A stretch of DNA of 64,000 nt from Sulfurimonas sp. HSL3-7 (GTDB taxonomy: Bacteria > Campylobacterota > Campylobacteria > Campylobacterales > Sulfurimonadaceae). The position numbers and the translations under genes were made by a program. The notes under the pieces were generated by a model that was not told the origin of the DNA, made no database searches, and saw only the letters and a program-made list of their open reading frames with translations. Positions 55,131 through 64,000 of the stretch are shown here, in pieces. The stretch's first letter is position 1, and each line of letters opens with the position of its first letter. The stretch is taken from positions 2,790,001 through 2,854,000 of the forward strand of contig NZ_CP147919.1 of assembly GCF_039645985.1 (NCBI RefSeq). The letters run 5' to 3'.

Positions 55131-55889
55131 ATGGATTACTTCGCAAAACGTATTATTCCCTGTCTAGACGTTAAAGACGGCCGTGTTGTCAAGGGCGTGA
55201 ACTTTGTCGGCCTTAAAGATGCCGGCGATCCCGTCGAAGTGGCGAAACGCTACAACGACGAGGGAGCCGACGAGATCACCTTTTTGGACATCGGTGCCTC
55301 GCACGAAGGGCGTGACACCATCGTCGACATAGTCGAAAAAGTGGCCCAGGAGGTCTTCATCCCGCTGACCGTGGGCGGCGGGATCCGCAAACTCGAAGAC
55401 ATCTATGCCCTGCTGAACGTCGGCTGCGACAAGGTCAGCGTCAACTCCGCTGCAATCAAACGCCCCGAATTCATCAATGAGGGAGCCCAGCGTTTCGGTT
55501 CGCAATGTATCGTCGTCGCGATCGATGTGAAAAAGACGGGCGACCAGTACAACGTCTATCTCAACGGCGGCCGTGTCGATACCGGCCTCAACGCCCTTGA
55601 GTGGGCCAAAGAGGCGGTCGACCGCGGGGCAGGGGAGATCCTTCTCACCTCGATGGATGCCGACGGTACCAAAGCGGGCTTTGACATCCCGATCACCGAG
55701 CAGATCAGCAAGCTGCTCAATGTGCCTGTCATCGCCAGCGGCGGCGCTGGAACGATGGAACACATCAGAGAGGCCTTTGAGCACGGGGCCGATGCGGCGC
55801 TGGCGGCAAGCATCTTCCACTACAAAGAGATCGACATCATGGACCTCAAGCACTACCTCCATGACCACCACATCCCGGTAAGGTTATGA
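55131..55889 (+). CDS. hisF: Imidazole glycerol phosphate synthase, cyclase subunit
   Basis: A 252-residue (beta-alpha)8 barrel with [18 protein letters not shown] (about 8-25), catalytic D11 and D130-type residues in VVAIDVKK, and the phosphate-binding [12 protein letters not shown] (about 200-211). With HisH it makes IGP and AICAR in histidine synthesis. HisH is not in this window, as his genes are often scattered in Campylobacterota. Confidence 0.95.
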
Positions 55890-55962: not shown

Positions 55963-56505
55963 GTGATCATCTGCGCCGGCAACAACGAGACCTTCGAGTT
56001 CGCCACGCCGATGGGCGTCGGCCTGGTCGAAACAGCGATGAACCTGACCCGCCTCTGCCTCTTTGACAAACCCGAATTCCTGCTCTTTGTCGGAACGGCC
56101 GGCTCTTACGGCAAACACAATATCTTCGATATCATCGAGTCTAAAACGGCGGCCAATATCGAGCTGGCATTTTTGCAGAAAAAGGCCTATACGCCGCTCG
56201 ACAATGTCGTCAGTACCCAGACAGAAGGGAAAAAGGACATCATCGTCAACTCCTCCAATTACATCTCCACCGATGCGGAACTGGTCAAAAAGTTCCTGAA
56301 CTTCGGTGTCGAGATAGAGAACATGGAGTTCTTCAGTGTGCTGCGCATTGCCCAGGAGTTCGACATCCCTGCAGGCGGTGTTTTCTGTGTCACCAACTAC
56401 TGCGACGAGAATGCGCATGCGGATTTTCTGAAAAACCACGACGAGGCGAAAGAGAAGCTGACACGCCACGTGAAACAACGCATCAAAGAGCTGACTGCCA
56501 GATAA
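55963..56505 (+). CDS. MTA/SAH nucleosidase-like (PNP/UDP fold) protein
   Basis: A 180-residue protein beginning with a GTG after AGGAGTGTTTCT. It starts directly with IICAGNNETFEFATPMGVGLVETAMNLTR, i.e. it lacks part of the usual N-terminal strand, then FVGTAGSYGKHNIFDI and ENMEFFSVLRIAQEFDIPAGGVFCVTNYCD (positions about 42-57 and 112-141). Family members cleave methylthioadenosine or S-adenosylhomocysteine, or phosphorolyse purine nucleosides. It is about 50 residues shorter than MTAN, so activity is uncertain. It sits between hisF and rlmN. Confidence 0.75.
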   Translation: MIICAGNNETFEFATPMGVGLVETAMNLTRLCLFDKPEFLLFVGTAGSYGKHNIFDIIESKTAANIELAFLQKKAYTPLDNVVSTQTEGKKDIIVNSSNYISTDAELVKKFLNFGVEIENMEFFSVLRIAQEFDIPAGGVFCVTNYCDENAHADFLKNHDEAKEKLTRHVKQRIKELTAR

Positions 56506-56580
56506 AGTTCCTCAAATTTTTCAATCCCTCTGAAGTCCCTCTACGCTATTATTTCAATAATCTATTACGACGAGGCGACT

Positions 56581-57669
56581 GTGGCAGAGACAAAACCGAC
56601 CATCCTTGACTATACCAAAGAGGAACTCCAGACCCTCGTCAAACCCGCCTTCCGTGCAAAACAGATCTTCGGCTGGATCTATAACAGCTTTGTCGACAGC
56701 TTCGACGAAATGCAGAACATCCCCAAAGCCCTCCGAGAAGAGCTCAGCGAAAAATTCATCCTCAATCCGCTCAAGATCCTGCACAAAGAGGAGTCTGCCG
56801 ACGGTACCATCAAATACCTTTTCGAACTCCCTGACGGCAAGACCATCGAGACCGTATGGCTGAAGATGAAAGATGCCCAGTATGACGACGAAGGCAAACT
56901 GCTGCACGAGGCAAAGCACACCGTCTGCGTATCGACGCAGGTCGGCTGCAAGGTAGGGTGCAGCTTCTGTCTGACCGCAAAGGGGGGCTTCACCCGTGAC
57001 CTTACTCCCGGCGAGATCGTCGCACAGGTGCTTACAGTCAAAAAAGACAACCAGCACGCCTCCAACCGCCGCGTCAACATCGTCTACATGGGGATGGGTG
57101 AGCCGCTCGACAACCTCGATAGCCTGACCAAGGCGATCAAGATCTTCAAAGACGAAGACGGTCTCGCCATCTCCGGCAAGCGCCAGACCGTCTCCACCAG
57201 CGGGATCAGTACCAAGATCGACAAACTGGGCGAGGCCGACCTGGGCGTCCATATCGCCATCTCGCTGCACGCCGTCGACGACGATCTTCGCACCGAACTG
57301 ATCCCGATGAACAAAGCCTATAACATCCAGTCCATCATCGACGCAGTCAAACGTTTTCCTATTGACACCCGTAAACGGGTGATGTTCGAGTACCTGGTCA
57401 TCAAGAACAGAAACGACGACCTTCAGTCGGCCAAAAAACTGGTCAAGCTTCTCAGCGGTATTAAGGCCAAGGTCAACCTGATCTACTTCAACCCCTATCC
57501 GGGGTCAGACTACCAACGCCCAAGCCGTGAAGACATGGTTGCGTTTCAGGAGTACCTTGTCAACCACGGTCTCCTCTGTACGATACGCGACTCGAAGGGG
57601 ATCGATATCAGCGCTGCCTGCGGTCAGCTCAAAGAGACTAAAGAGAACGAGAAAAAGGAGTTGGTATGA
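56581..57669 (+). CDS. rlmN: Dual-specificity 23S rRNA/tRNA (adenine-C2)-methyltransferase RlmN
   Basis: A 362-residue radical SAM enzyme. The cluster motif CKVGCSFC (about 123-130) and the two additional catalytic cysteines (one in the C-terminal ISAACGQLK, about 346) are present. [14 protein letters not shown] and [10 protein letters not shown] (about 170-179) identify RlmN, which methylates A2503 of 23S rRNA and A37 of tRNAs. It starts with GTG. Its stop overlaps the next small gene (ATGA). Confidence 0.95.
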
Positions 57670-57764
57670 CCATGCTCGATATTACAGAGATAGGTTTTCT
57701 GATCGTCATTGTTGTTGTCGGTGTCGTAGGCATGATCTACGTCATCAAAAATGACAACGGCTAA
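57666..57764 (+). CDS. 32-residue single-pass membrane protein
   Basis: A short frame beginning at the ATGA of the rlmN stop. It encodes 32 residues with one strongly hydrophobic helix ([17 protein letters not shown], about 11-27) and a KNDNG end. Start-stop coupling and clean hydrophobicity suggest it is real. It resembles other small membrane proteins that regulate larger partners, but the partner is not evident. Confidence 0.5.
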
Positions 57765-57904
57765 AAGCACGCCTTCCAATCCTAAAATAGTGCATTACTG
57801 CAGAGTAGGAAAGGGCGATCACACTGCCGCTTTCTCCCGGCATTAAACAAACGGTTATGCTCTCTTGGTTACAATTATCTAAAACATATTGAGGAAAATC
57901 TATC

Positions 57905-58153
57905 ATGGCAGCAGTAAGAAAAACCAACTCGGAACGTATTTTACGTATTCACCAACTTTGCGAAGAACATTTTGGTTCCGTACGTTTCGTCGGCGTCAAA
58001 TACCACACGAAGATCGGATGGGTCGCAAAAGTACAGTTTGAAGATGACGTTGACTTCGGCAACCTCACTGCCGACGGTAAAGACGCGACCGATGCACTGC
58101 GCAAACTGAAAAACCGTGTTAAAAAGATCATTAAACGTTATAACGTAGTATAA
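57905..58153 (+). CDS. Small basic protein of unknown function
   Basis: An 82-residue protein with a basic C-terminus (LRKLKNRVKKIIKRYNVV) and an N-terminal RILRIHQLCEEHFG. The middle has alternating beta-like residues (SVRFVGVKYHTKIGWVAKVQF). I do not recognise the family; a small alpha/beta fold is plausible. GAGGAAAATCTATC precedes the ATG. It stands alone, divergent in spacing from the ATP-grasp gene that follows on the other strand. Confidence 0.65.
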   Translation: MAAVRKTNSERILRIHQLCEEHFGSVRFVGVKYHTKIGWVAKVQFEDDVDFGNLTADGKDATDALRKLKNRVKKIIKRYNVV

Positions 58154-58282
58154 ATACTTTTTTATCAATAGGCTTTTGTATATCAACCCTTCATACTGGC
58201 AAGTTTAATTACTATTTCAAAGACAACTTGTATCAATAAACATCTGTTCGCAAAAGCCTAGGGTAAAACACAAGACAATTCA

Positions 58283-59500
58283 TTACAAGTCAAAAGTATC
58301 AACCCCTTTTATTTCTACTTGTATATGTGCGTTCATGTGGTCCATTTTTTCAATCATTTCTTGTTCGCTGCGAAATTTCATGATAAATATACCTAAAGTA
58401 CAATCAGAACCTCTAAATTGTTTCACTTTGTCGCCTTTTTTTATATATATTGACTCTTGGATAATATTTTTTCTGATTTCATCGCTAAAACAAATATCTT
58501 TGACTATACCATCCTGCAATGCATGTAAAACATAATAGGCATAAAAACCTTCCGGCTTTTTCATCTTCAAGGAGGAAATATCCTTGCCCAATGCGGCATC
58601 GACAGTATATTTGACCATGTTAACCCCTGTTGCATGATAGACAAGTTCCGGAATCAGATTCCCTCCATTTCTGGCACCCGCCTCAATAATAGTAATATTA
58701 TTATTCTGATCAAATTGGAATTCGTGATTAATTGCACCTGTTTTCATCTTTAATAGAGTCATTAGTCTTTGTAGTTCCTTATGGAATTTGTCCAAAAAAG
58801 GCTTTTCGTAAACGGATGGCAGACTCCCTCCTACCGGAACCATGGGATTACAGTTTTTGTCAAAATGCGTGTTTGTATAACTTGCAAATACCACCTTGCC
58901 GTCAACTAAAAAACTGTCGCCCCCGATCTGATAACCACTTTTTACAAAGAACTCTTCGACAATGACTTTTTTTTCCTTAGAATATTTCATCGCATATTCA
59001 AATGCCGACTTTAATTCGTCCTTTGCTTTGATTTGAGTAACACCTTTGCTGCCTGAAGAGTCAACAGGTTTTACTATAACAGGCAGTGCAACGAAATCAA
59101 GCCACTCTTTTGCCTCGGTATAACCATAAAATGCCTTTGATTCGGGAACACAAAAATTGTGTTCTTTGAGAAAATTTTTGAATAGATCTTTACGGGAAAG
59201 AATCAATACAGAAGAATATGGGTTGGAAGGAAGCCCAAGATAATTGGCAACATAGGCTTGCGTTGGCGCTGCTGGGTCAGAAGCGTAAGCAACGATACCG
59301 TCTATATTCAATCTTTTTGCAAGCGCCAAAACAGCCTCTTTGTCCGTAGTGCTAATATCATGGTATTCATTTGCAAGTTTATGGCCTGGATTTTCCGGTA
59401 AATAATCGCAGGTAATGACATAATGGCCTTGCTCTTTTGCATATATAATAGGTGCGATCTGAGACTGTGATGCTCCAAGAAATAAAATACGCTTCTGCAT
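58283..59500 (-). CDS. ATP-grasp ligase (CarB/PurK-like)
   Basis: A 405-residue ATP-grasp enzyme. An N-terminal pre-grasp domain (about 1-95) starts with RILFLGASQSQIAPI. The central fold has ALPVIVKPVDSSGSKGVT (about 138-155) as the ATP-binding loop and EFQFDQNNNITIIEAGARNGGNLIPEL (about 259-285) with the metal ligands. Such ligases join an acid to an amine or amino acid; the substrate is unknown and relatives are common in surface glycan or natural-product clusters. The gene is AT-richer than its neighbours and stands alone, which suggests acquisition by transfer. Confidence 0.82.
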   Translation of the reverse strand: MQKRILFLGASQSQIAPIIYAKEQGHYVITCDYLPENPGHKLANEYHDISTTDKEAVLALAKRLNIDGIVAYASDPAAPTQAYVANYLGLPSNPYSSVLILSRKDLFKNFLKEHNFCVPESKAFYGYTEAKEWLDFVALPVIVKPVDSSGSKGVTQIKAKDELKSAFEYAMKYSKEKKVIVEEFFVKSGYQIGGDSFLVDGKVVFASYTNTHFDKNCNPMVPVGGSLPSVYEKPFLDKFHKELQRLMTLLKMKTGAINHEFQFDQNNNITIIEAGARNGGNLIPELVYHATGVNMVKYTVDAALGKDISSLKMKKPEGFYAYYVLHALQDGIVKDICFSDEIRKNIIQESIYIKKGDKVKQFRGSDCTLGIFIMKFRSEQEMIEKMDHMNAHIQVEIKGVDTFDL

Positions 59501-60652
59501 TAATATGCCTTTTAATCATTGCTATGATTAATTACCTAATGACTTTGTCCTGGGAGGAGTGTCAAAGATAGAAGAACCCTTATTGGCAACCGTCTTATTT
59601 AGATCAATATCTGTATTCGCACACAGACTCCGCCAGAAATCTACACTTGCATCATTAACAAAAAGCCTAAAAGTATATTCTCTTCAGTGTAGTTTTATTA
59701 GCCAGTACATGCTGCTATAGGAAAACTGATTGTATATCACAAACGATATCAAATATGCTGCAAAAAGGATATTAAAAAATCCAATCGAATATATATTTCA
59801 GTTTTAAATGCGATTCTTGTCGTGTCAACTAAAATACCATCACGTACAACTCAGTCATTATCGGCGGATGATTTAACAACATCATTGGATAACTATCCCG
59901 TTAAATCAATGCAGTGCAAAAATAAGTTGATATGGAAGATGGGTAAAAAAAGAGAGAAAACGGCCAACACACCAGGGAGACCGTTTATGGCCACAATCTT
60001 AACACACTATTCTTATAGACCACTGACATCAAAATCATATAATCTTTAATGACACTCATTATTAAGTCTTGGCTACATAGATAATATATTTTTATTATCA
60101 AACTCCGTTTACAGAAATTCATTATATTTTTCTTAAAAATAGAGCCACTATATTTCGTCATGAAGGCATTAAAATAGATTTTTAATACTACGGGTCATCT
60201 AAAGAAAAAAAACGCTCAAAACCGCTTATTTTCACACGGTGCATAAGATGTGAATAAGAGAGGCCATTTTTAGTAATTTTTTGCTTTTTTTACGGTATTT
60301 CAGATTACTTTTATATTAATAAATACTTAATTTGAAAATTTACACCCATCTTTTTTAAGGCCCGTAAAACAGGGTTTTCTAAACCATATTCATAATAATT
60401 ATCTATATGTAGCAGATCTGAAACAGCCTTCTAAAAAGTTTTTCACATTTCCCAGAGTTTGCAGCGTCTTTCCGGCTGAAAATATCACTTTTTTCCCATT
60501 TTTATGCCACTCCTATTCTATTCACTGTATCGCTTTTAACAAGATATATTTTGCTTGACTTGATGGCACTTCAGTAATCCAAATATGACCCTCGTGTAAC
60601 CTCCAGGCAATATTAAATATCTAAACTGCTTTACTTTCTATCGGAGAAAACT
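59501..60652. other. AT-rich gene-free stretch
   Basis: About 1.15 kb without a coding frame I can support. The largest frame (59822-60049, 75 codons) lacks a ribosome binding site and has no recognisable motif. The composition is clearly more AT-rich than the surrounding genes, with runs of A and T. It probably represents decayed or recently inserted DNA next to two accessory genes. No insertion-sequence ends, tRNA or attachment site were seen. Confidence 0.6.
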
Positions 60653-62386
60653 ATGTTTAGCATTGAAGAGATTTTACAAAGCGAGCATCCCAAAATTTTT
60701 ACTTATCCAAAGCTGATAACCAAACCGGGCATCTCATTTTTGCAACTGCTTTTTCATGAACAGCATATCAATGATTTTTTGCAGAACCATCCTCAGAGTG
60801 GTATCGATTTTATCAATAATGTTTTGGAACACTTGGAGATATCCTATAAAACAGATAACAAAGAGATTCTCAATGTCCCCTCTATCGGTAAATGTATTAT
60901 TGTCGCCAATCATCCTCTCGGCGCACTTGATGCTTTGGTCTTAATACAGATGCTCATATCTGTCCGCCAGGAGAAAAAGATCAAGATCGTAGCCAATGCC
61001 ATGCTATCACACATAGTACAATTAGAAGAGCTTCTCATTCCTGTTGATAATATAAGCGGGAAACTGACAAAAGAGAGTCTGCATGCTATCGAAAACGCTT
61101 TGCAGAATGAAGAACTGGTCATCTTCTTTCCGGCAGGAGAGGTCTCTCGTGCCAATATTAACGGCATATCGGATGGCAAATGGAAAAAAGGGTTTTTGAA
61201 GTTTGCCAAACGTACCCAGTCTCCTATACTGCCTATACATATTCATGCACGCAACAGTTTGACCTTTTATACCGCATCATTGATCTACAAACCATTCGGC
61301 GCAGCACTGTTGGCCCACGAGATGTTCAAATCAAAAAAAAGCGTCTTTGAATTTACTATCGGTGAACTTGTAGCACCGCAAACCGTCTTCAGCATGAATC
61401 TCCCTCTGAAACAACATGCAAAACTGTTCCGAAAGCATCTTTACAAAATTGCCAAAGGCAAAAAGGGATTTTACAAGACCGAACAGTGCATAGCGCATCC
61501 CGAGTCTCGCCAGCTCATCAAACAGGAGCTAAGCAGTGCTGAGCATCTCGGCACTACCACAGACAATAAGCTCATCTATCTTGTCGAGTACCGTGAGGCT
61601 CCAACGCTTATGAATGAAATAGGGCGTCTGCGCGAATACAGTTTTCGAAAAGTAGGCGAGGGTACCGGTCGCCACAAAGACCTTGACAGATACGATGAGT
61701 ACTACCAGCACCTGGTGCTGTGGGATGACCAGGCGTTGGAAGTCGTCGGCGCTTATCGTCTTGGAGAATGCAACTGGATCCTCTCGTGGTCAGGAAAAGA
61801 GGGGCTTTATCTCAATGAACTCTGCAGTATGGATGAACAGCATGACCAGTATCTCTTAGAAGCTGTAGAACTGGGACGAAGTTTTGTCCAGCCCCGCTAC
61901 TGGGGAACGCGCGCACTTGACTATCTTTGGCAGGGTATCGGTGCCTATTTGAAACATAATCCACAGATACGCTATCTTATGGGGCCGGTAAGCATCAGTG
62001 CTTCTTACCCAGCCAGTGCCAGAGATGCTATCGTCTATTTTTACAGCCGCTATTTTGCTCCGATGCAAAAAACGCTTACCGCCCGCTCTCCCTATCGGCT
62101 CTCCAATATAACCAACAAAGAGTTTGACGAACTTTTTGACGACAATGACTATAAAACAGCCTTTGTCCAACTGAAAAACTACCTTGCCGCTTTTGATGTA
62201 AACGTACCGACACTGTTCAAACAGTATTCAGAACTATGCGAAGAGGGCGGTGTCACCTTTTTTGATTTTGGTATAGACAGTGATTTTAATGATTGCGTAG
62301 ATGGTTACATTCTTGTAGACCGGCAGCTGATGAAAGCATCAAAACAGAAACGCTATATCCGTAGCGATACACTGAACGGTGGCTGA
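60653..62386 (+). CDS. olsF: OlsF-like bifunctional acyltransferase (ornithine/amino lipid synthesis)
   Basis: A 577-residue fusion. The N-terminal part (about 40-270) is a PlsC-like acyltransferase with ANHPLGALDALVLIQML (about 87-103) and FFPAGEVSR (about 161-169). The C-terminal part (about 305-490) is a hemolysin/OlsB-type GNAT domain with LREYSFRKVGEGTGRHKDLDRYDEYYQHLVLWDD (about 325-358). This order and length match OlsF, which first N-acylates ornithine with the C-terminal domain and then adds a second acyl chain with the N-terminal domain. CGGAGAAAACT precedes the ATG. Ornithine lipids often replace phospholipids under phosphate limitation. Confidence 0.8.
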   Translation: MFSIEEILQSEHPKIFTYPKLITKPGISFLQLLFHEQHINDFLQNHPQSGIDFINNVLEHLEISYKTDNKEILNVPSIGKCIIVANHPLGALDALVLIQMLISVRQEKKIKIVANAMLSHIVQLEELLIPVDNISGKLTKESLHAIENALQNEELVIFFPAGEVSRANINGISDGKWKKGFLKFAKRTQSPILPIHIHARNSLTFYTASLIYKPFGAALLAHEMFKSKKSVFEFTIGELVAPQTVFSMNLPLKQHAKLFRKHLYKIAKGKKGFYKTEQCIAHPESRQLIKQELSSAEHLGTTTDNKLIYLVEYREAPTLMNEIGRLREYSFRKVGEGTGRHKDLDRYDEYYQHLVLWDDQALEVVGAYRLGECNWILSWSGKEGLYLNELCSMDEQHDQYLLEAVELGRSFVQPRYWGTRALDYLWQGIGAYLKHNPQIRYLMGPVSISASYPASARDAIVYFYSRYFAPMQKTLTARSPYRLSNITNKEFDELFDDNDYKTAFVQLKNYLAAFDVNVPTLFKQYSELCEEGGVTFFDFGIDSDFNDCVDGYILVDRQLMKASKQKRYIRSDTLNGG

Positions 62387-62439
62387 ATCGATCCATATAT
62401 TTTGCAGATCTCATTACTGTTTCATAGAGGAAATAATAT

Positions 62440-62463
62440 TTATTGTTTCACGTGAAACAATAA
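62440..62463. other. parS site 1 (within a 24-bp palindrome)
   Basis: TGTTTCACGTGAAACA at 62444-62459 matches the parS consensus exactly and is extended to a 24-bp perfect palindrome (62440-62463). It is intergenic. ParB/Spo0J binds such sites and, with ParA/Soj, organises and segregates the origin region. The adjacent A-run is coincidental to the palindrome, which has no loop and so is not a typical terminator. Confidence 0.93.
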
Positions 62464-62530
62464 AAAAGGCTGACTTAACAGAACCGAGTATGGAGCTGCC
62501 GCTTCCTGTAAAATATTCTCATTTCTATTG

Positions 62531-63442
62531 CTATGTGGTCATAGCTTCGTAGCACTCTTTTAAGAAATCGGTCTTGGATTTCACTACATAATCGTTGCCG
62601 CCATAACTGAACTCCAACTGTGATGCGTGAAGCAAAAGACGTTTCGCTCCTCCCAATTTAATTCGCTCACTGCTGTCGATATCTCTATCTAGAAAACGGA
62701 CGATATCCGATTCGCTTTGCCCGTATATCGGGTCACCAACGATCGGATGTTTCACGTGAAACAAATGCACCCTTATTTGATGCTGCCGTCCGGTCAAGGG
62801 CTTTGCTTCGACCAGTGTCATATCAAGCTCGGGAAAATATTGGATTGGCGTGATCAGGGTTTCAGAATATTTGCCTTCGGGATGGACACGGACAACCATG
62901 CGCACGATCGCGCTCTCATCTTCTCTGCGAAGCAGGGGTTCTTTGATGTCCATAATCTCTTTGACTTCACCATGGACCAGTGCCAGATATCGTTTCTGCA
63001 TTTTACGCTCTTCAAACATCATCTTGAGTGTGCGTTCGCTCTTTTTATTGTTAGCACTTAACACAAGCCCGCTCGTCTCCTGGTCTATGCGGTGAGTAAT
63101 GTTTGCATCCCTGCCGAAGTGGTGTTTGATCTCATCGATGAGCGAGTAGGGCGTATGACGGTTTTGCGGATGAATTAAAACACCGGACGGTTTGTCAAAA
63201 AGAGCGAAATCGTTAGTAACAAAGATGGGTACCAATCCTCTTGTCTGAGGCTCGAAATCTATCAGCTCAACTTTTCCCTCGAGCTGGAAAGAGTCTTTCA
63301 TCACATATTCGCCGTTACAAAGGAGACGTCCTTTTGAAATCATACGCTGTGCAACTTTATGTGTCATGCCTAATTCACGGATGAGAAAAAGAAAAGCCGG
63401 CGTCTTCTTTTCAACACTGAATTGCTTGATGATAAATGGCAT
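62531..63442 (-). CDS. RluA-family 23S/tRNA pseudouridine synthase
   Basis: A 303-residue enzyme with an N-terminal S4-like RNA-binding domain (about 20-75, MTHKVAQRMISKGRLLCNGEYV) and the RluA catalytic motif THRIDQETSGLVL (about 115-127), Asp about 119. GRQHQIRVHLFHVKHPIVGDPIYG (about 219-242) is the conserved C-terminal stretch. The unusual FHVKHP replaces the common LGHP. In DNA this stretch contains a perfect parS site. The target uridine cannot be read from sequence. It is divergent from purB. Confidence 0.9.
   Translation of the reverse strand: MPFIIKQFSVEKKTPAFLFLIRELGMTHKVAQRMISKGRLLCNGEYVMKDSFQLEGKVELIDFEPQTRGLVPIFVTNDFALFDKPSGVLIHPQNRHTPYSLIDEIKHHFGRDANITHRIDQETSGLVLSANNKKSERTLKMMFEERKMQKRYLALVHGEVKEIMDIKEPLLRREDESAIVRMVVRVHPEGKYSETLITPIQYFPELDMTLVEAKPLTGRQHQIRVHLFHVKHPIVGDPIYGQSESDIVRFLDRDIDSSERIKLGGAKRLLLHASQLEFSYGGNDYVVKSKTDFLKECYEAMTT
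62748..62763. other. parS site 2, inside the rluA-family gene
   Basis: TGTTTCACGTGAAACA again, an exact parS consensus, 304 bp from site 1. It lies inside the rluA-type coding region and encodes LFHVKH on the minus strand, where most relatives have LGHP. The reading frame appears to have been shaped to hold the site. Confidence 0.92.
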
Positions 63443-63497
63443 TTTTAAACCCTTTATTAGTCTATTTCCTGTACTATTTATAGATAAAATGTGGATG

Positions 63498-63547
63498 AAA
63501 TCTCTGGATAAAAAACTGTAAAAAGATGGTCTTTTATCCAGAGATTT
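63498..63547. repeat. 16-bp perfect inverted repeat between divergent genes
   Basis: AAATCTCTGGATAAAA (63498-63513) is the exact reverse complement of 63532-63547, with an 18-nt spacer. It lies in the divergent region between the rluA-type gene and purB, upstream of both. Terminators are not expected there, so it may be an operator or a structured leader. TTATCCAGA within it is one base from a DnaA box, and a further similar 9-mer lies at 63491. Confidence 0.85.
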
Positions 63548-63625
63548 TCGTACGAATTATACCTTAGTCGAATTGATTCTAAGCGGTTGGTACGTATTCA
63601 TCACTCAACAACACAAAGGTACAAA

Positions 63626-64000
63626 ATGGTAGAACGTTATTCACGCCCCGAAATGGCTGAAAAATGGACACAGTATGCTCGATATGCAGCATGGCTAGAA
63701 GTAGAGAAAGCAGCGGTAAAAGCCTGGGCAAAACTTGGAAAGATCCCTCAAGAGGATGCAGACAAGATCGTTAAAAATGCGAAGTTCTCCGTAGAGCGTA
63801 TCGAAGAGATCGAAGCGGTCACCAAACATGACCTGATCGCATTTAACACCAGCGTTGCCGAGAGCCTTGGTGATGAGTCGCGATGGTTCCACTATGGTAT
63901 GACAAGTTCAGATGCAGTTGATACAGGTGTAGCACTACAGATGAGAGACTCTTTAAACATTATCATCGATGATGTTAAGATGTTGATGGAGTCGATCAAG
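63626..64000 (+). CDS. purB: Adenylosuccinate lyase (5' part)
   Basis: The first 125 codons of a purB gene that runs off the window. The conserved MVERYSRPEM start, DLIAFNTSVAESLG (about 69-82) and the signature GMTSSDAVDTG (about 91-101) identify the lyase that acts twice in purine synthesis (SAICAR to AICAR and adenylosuccinate to AMP). AAAGGTACAAA precedes the ATG. The gene is intact as far as it can be read. Confidence 0.94.
   Translation, partial: MVERYSRPEMAEKWTQYARYAAWLEVEKAAVKAWAKLGKIPQEDADKIVKNAKFSVERIEEIEAVTKHDLIAFNTSVAESLGDESRWFHYGMTSSDAVDTGVALQMRDSLNIIIDDVKMLMESIK

Follow-up and report, generated by a model that had tools for sequence, protein, structure and literature searches.

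Chromosomal ParABS systems, the pairing of parS sites close to the replication origin and the presence of parS sites within genes are already known. The consensus parS sequence, as used in work on ParB and Noc proteins, is TGTTTCAC-GTGAAACA, and the amino acids at the positions equivalent to R173, T179 and G201 decide whether such a protein recognizes parS or the Noc site (PMC7383237). An intragenic location of parS is accepted for Pseudomonas aeruginosa, where nine of the ten sites are predicted to lie within coding sequences (PMC4368675). The closest solved ParB structure for the system described here, the Helicobacter pylori ParB-parS complex (PDB accession code 4umk), depicts the protein on a parS duplex and is silent on the location of parS sites in genes. 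Sulfurimonas sp. HSL3-7 shares with the described chromosomal ParABS systems an exact consensus site, the proximity of the sites to the origin and their pairing, an adjacent ParA-ParB gene pair, the CTP-binding motif and parS-type reading residues in ParB. It differs from them in that its parAB genes are found about 0.97 Mb away from the sites, and in that one of the two sites is dual-coding and occupies an unchanged set of codons from family to family. This also sets it apart from P. aeruginosa: here the same gene and the same codons carry the site in many families, and the effects on codons and residues can be measured, while the accessible part of the P. aeruginosa report contains no such effects (PMC4368675). 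An exonic parS site that keeps to one set of codons in different families and is accompanied by a change of residues was not found in the literature searched, a search that did not extend to the principal parS survey by Livny et al. (2007), and no relevant paper emerged on parS in connection with pseudouridine synthase, with Epsilonproteobacteria or with Sulfurimonas.

The window that we analyzed is a 64,000-nucleotide stretch (bases 2,790,001-2,854,000) of the single-contig, 2,872,400-bp chromosome of strain HSL3-7; unless marked as genome positions, coordinates refer to this window. The palindrome TGTTTCACGTGAAACA, for which no strand is assigned, is present at 62444-62459 (site 1) and 62748-62763 (site 2) with a start-to-start spacing of 304 bp, and both copies are identical to the published 16-bp consensus. 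Since only about 0.0007 exact copies (and 0.83 copies with up to two mismatches) are expected genome-wide from base composition, two exact copies at such a distance are not attributable to chance. The window contains no third parS when up to three mismatches are allowed, and a search of the entire closed genome at up to two mismatches recovered these two sites only. Site 1 is intergenic and is positioned 57 bp beyond the stop codon of olsF and 71 bp beyond that of rluA, two convergent genes whose ends, at 62386 and 62531, flank it. Site 2 is exonic and encodes residues Leu-Phe-His-Val-Lys-His as codons 227-232 of rluA, a minus-strand gene (62531-63442), just as the original prediction of two perfect parS sites, one of them embedded in an rluA-type gene, had proposed.

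The 303-amino-acid product of rluA is an RluA-family pseudouridine synthase; it matches PF00849 above the cut-off (102 bits) and carries the catalytic HR-D motif as HRID at residues 117-120, with H117, R118 and D120 being invariant. It could not be assigned as an RluA, RluC, RluD or TruC equivalog, as it scores far below the cut-offs of these equivalog models, and the subfamily model TIGR00005 is likewise missed (166 bits versus a cut-off of 192.7). The Escherichia coli RluD and RluC structures (1v9f and 1v9k) belong to the same family and can be aligned over the HQIRVH...HP...D..YG motif, but read MAHITHP and TQYAGHP, respectively, where the HSL3-7 protein reads LFHVKHP. In the AlphaFold2 model (mean pLDDT of 89), the residues encoded by the site form the end of a helix (222-229) together with the loop behind it, and they adjoin the conserved HQIRVH and GDP.YG motifs. 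The neighboring olsF gene (60653-62386, plus strand), which encodes a bifunctional ornithine lipid synthase (NF052615, 773 bits, over the cut-off), is preceded on the same strand by hisF (55134-55886; TIGR00735 over the cut-off), a nucleosidase-like gene of the phosphorylase superfamily (55963-56490; weak matches below every cut-off, and devoid of an exonic parS in HSL3-7) and the dual-specificity RNA methyltransferase gene rlmN (56599-57630; TIGR00048 over the cut-off). This hisF-nucleosidase-rlmN-rluA neighborhood is common to several families. The interval between rlmN and olsF contains an ATP-grasp gene and otherwise little that could be recognized, and the G+C content of the region 56001-64000 is 0.43, in comparison with 0.47-0.54 in the remaining window.

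Neither parAB nor dnaA is present in the window, as had been stated from the outset, and both are encoded elsewhere on the chromosome. The dnaA gene occupies genome positions 102-1382, just across the contig join. The GC skew, assessed in twenty 20-kb samples, is positive over the first 1.4 Mb and negative between 1.54 Mb and the contig end, and its change of sign therefore coincides with the contig join and with dnaA. Because dnaA and the skew flip both sit at this join, the two parS sites are located about 20 kb from the origin. A ParA-like gene (260 amino acids) directly precedes the gene for ParB (281 amino acids) at 1.907 Mb of the genome, and the chromosome hence encodes the cognate protein pair expected of a ParABS centromere. 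Read from the sequence, the parA-parB pair (L003:157-2915; genome positions of about 1.906-1.908 Mb) is in turn directly followed by two genes resembling the b-type subunit of ATP synthase. ParB has the H. pylori ParB-parS complex as its best solved relative (240 bits), carries the CTP-binding motif as GERRLR and retains the equivalents of R173, T179 and G201 (Caulobacter numbering, read off the alignment); it thus combines the CTP motif with residues specific for parS. Nucleoid occlusion by a Noc protein acting at an NBS was considered and rejected: the NBS reads TATTTCCCGGGAAATA and Noc proteins possess Q173 and R201, whereas the HSL3-7 site is parS and its ParB possesses R173 and G201.

The exonic site is widely distributed among relatives of strain HSL3-7. 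Orthologues of rluA were obtained from 110 of the 121 genomes of the host's family, and all 70 genomes sampled from the order's other families gave rluA matches, a small number of which were weak and resembled paralogues; codon positions were mapped by tblastn on the fetched DNA. In the resulting sample of 184 genomes (four second gene copies were not counted separately), a parS sequence with zero to two mismatches is found at codon 227, always in phase 1, in 144 genomes that represent 41 of 75 genera, and it is exact in 92 of them. The distribution of mismatches is bimodal, with either 0-2 or 5-11 mismatches and not a single genome with three or four among the 184. By family, designated here by our codes, the site is present in 106 of 110 genomes of f1, in 12 of 15 of f3, in all of those of f4 (10), f8 (8), f10 (4), f11 (2) and f12 (1), and in one of two of f9; it is absent from f2 (0 of 11), f5 (0 of 4), f6 (0 of 2), f7 (0 of 14) and f13 (0 of 1). 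In one genus (g6; loci L094, L104, L111 and others), rluA is tandemly duplicated, and both copies have a parS-like sequence with zero to two mismatches at codon 227. A combined motif and exact-parS scan over GTDB species genomes yielded at least 80 loci, a lower bound, and among the matches listed, sites borne by rluA are confined to Campylobacterota-type records or to untyped metagenome-assembled genomes with a similar RluA. Matches to the exonic pattern in Clostridia, Streptomyces, alphaproteobacteria and others were discarded, as none of those listed resides in an RluA gene.

The codon usage within the site is exceptional. With the peptide LFHVKH given, and with codon frequencies taken from the remainder of these genes, an exact parS sequence has a probability of 0.0075; among 128 copies that encode LFHVKH, about one exact parS is thus expected, but 91 were observed, and these come from 28 of 34 genera. 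As shared ancestry inflates this calculation, the rest of the gene was taken as the control. When one copy from each of the 41 site-bearing genera was evaluated in windows of five codons, the third-position entropy was the lowest of the entire gene in the windows starting at codons 226 and 227 (0.24 versus a mean of 1.60); among site-less genera, the corresponding window holds an ordinary rank of 186 out of 285. Val230 is encoded by GTG in 38 of 38 genera, while each of the other 26 conserved fourfold-degenerate columns uses all four synonyms, and codons 230 and 231 have invariant third positions in 160 of 160 site-bearing copies. Variants of the palindrome occur at mirror positions (T5C and A12G; C8T and G9A), either singly or together, as for instance in TGTTCCACGTGGAACA. 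One change in each mirror pair is silent and the other alters a residue (A12G exchanges Lys for Glu, G9A exchanges Val for Met), and both kinds occur. Since variants are thus encountered in either half-site, the symmetry of the DNA is maintained at the expense of the protein.

One might argue that LFHVKH is required for the function of the enzyme and that it resembles parS as a side effect of conservation at the protein level, a proposal that would fit the proximity of these residues to the HQIRVH and GDP.YG motifs and the invariance of all six of them in 31 aligned site-bearing proteins. It would leave unexplained, however, why synonymous positions are frozen within the site while the codons for the same amino acids drift freely elsewhere in the gene, and why exchanges of Lys for Glu and Val for Met are tolerated where the DNA remains parS-like. 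Furthermore, in all 44 site-less copies at least two of the six residues of LFHVKH are replaced, and the only two copies of the 16-mer in the HSL3-7 genome are both next to the origin; we consider an origin of the site through protein function highly improbable. Site-less orthologues nearly always keep the His and have exchanged the Phe, Val and Lys, and they mostly read xxIGHP-like. The suggestion that a conserved LGHP had been converted to FHVKHP accordingly stands with regard to the change of residues but not with regard to the motif of site-less orthologues, which is usually xxIGHP and not LGHP. That the protein has been shaped by the parS site which it hosts, as was originally proposed, is strongly supported by the contrast between the IGH-type sequences of most site-less orthologues and a LFHVKH with frozen synonymous positions in the site-bearing ones.

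Two further explanations concern the standing of the sites as a centromere. The absence of parAB and dnaA from the window had led to the view that the palindromes are satellite sites; stated more generally, they could be regulatory or satellite parS-like sequences to which ParB or a Noc-like protein binds, with the true centromere positioned elsewhere. The distance of about 0.97 Mb between parAB and both sites would accord with this, but a remote parAB is the rule among the closed genomes of the host's family, where parB is found roughly 0.6-1.05 Mb from dnaA while rluA is only 5-20 kb from it (13 closed genomes). With no other site at up to two mismatches in the whole genome, with a sequence that is parS and not the Noc site, and with a ParB that has the parS-type R173/G201 pair, there is hardly any probability left for a satellite role. 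Judged by these sequence data, the two sites are very probably the primary chromosomal centromere; the expectation that parS clusters at the origin is borne out, the genome does encode ParB, and its sites are not scattered without origin bias. For site 1, the position between the convergent olsF and rluA genes, together with a perfect hairpin followed by a run of A residues, raises the thought that it is merely the stem of a transcription terminator. Yet the fold of this region is not significantly stronger than that of shuffled sequence (z of -1.43), site 1 is missing from the output of a terminator scan, its 16 bases are exactly those of the exonic site, and in the congeners that were read the partner site falls within coding sequence, all of which makes a mere terminator very unlikely; a double role of site 1 as parS and terminator stem may nevertheless exist.

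The partner of the codon-227 site is less firmly placed. It lies 3' of rluA in HSL3-7 and just 3' or 5' of this gene elsewhere, and in the five congeners read and in several other genera it is found on rluA codon 159, where the protein has VSRET instead of the EVKEI of HSL3-7. Genomes that lack the codon-227 site often have a parS within about 175 bp past rluA (G186, G311, G312 and G345). Members of f2, f3, f5, f8, f9 and f11 carry an exonic parS of its own in the nucleosidase gene (NVSRET or similar), and in f7 parS is exonic in a gene for a KpsF/KdsD-type sugar-phosphate isomerase. This latter site is on the same codon (amino acid 207, VSRET) in three genera (L005-L007, L009-L011, L023 and L024), and in one f8 locus (L182:2622-3290) an exact parS is present inside an endonuclease III (nth)-type gene. 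In the families f2, f5 and f7, which are without the rluA site, parS occupies other positions near the origin; rluA is at least 240 kb from dnaA in each of the four f2 chromosomes checked, and their parS is found at a different place, no more than 65 kb from dnaA. Conversely, the rluA site is the only parS at up to two mismatches in a single-contig f3 genome (G012). A tree of rluA (108 rows, motif columns removed, unrooted) requires at least nine changes of site state; repeated loss (or gain) of the site must therefore have occurred, and codon 227 is a position at which it can be dispensed with.

Our proposal is that the two palindromes very probably constitute the chromosomal centromere of strain HSL3-7 and that selection acting at the DNA level keeps the site within rluA where it is. 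We infer that ParB binds these sites in HSL3-7 and that they function in segregation. ParB dimers would load at both palindromes and then spread onto the flanking DNA, and ParA would move the ParB-bound DNA such that the origin region would be the first part of the replicated chromosome to segregate. A requirement of ParB loading for the 16-mer near the origin would freeze the overlapping rluA codons, and these would give the enzyme LFHVKH, and not an xxIGHP-type sequence, where its conserved HQIRVH helix ends; the partner site would be free to shift over a few hundred bp. For the order as a whole, it is likely that one exonic centromere at rluA codons 227-232 was inherited through most lineages and dictated the residues there, and that its loss was followed by other residues, with parS often retained nearby (within a few hundred bp) or in another origin-proximal gene (nucleosidase, KdsD-type or nth), so that centromeres would drift by local turnover inside coding sequence.

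The conservation of the exonic site at the same codon and phase across the order, about which the original prediction had asked, provides a rule for finding the centromere in this group of bacteria, either through rluA itself or through the neighboring hisF-nucleosidase-rlmN genes. The same 16 bases that serve ParB also serve a conserved enzyme, which makes the locus a clean natural experiment on how the demands of a DNA-binding site and those of a coding sequence conflict, and the pairs of LFHVKH and xxIGHP sequences would permit the effects on DNA and on protein to be separated through synonymous recoding. The case shows how a bacterial centromere keeps its position for long periods, and how it comes to shift.
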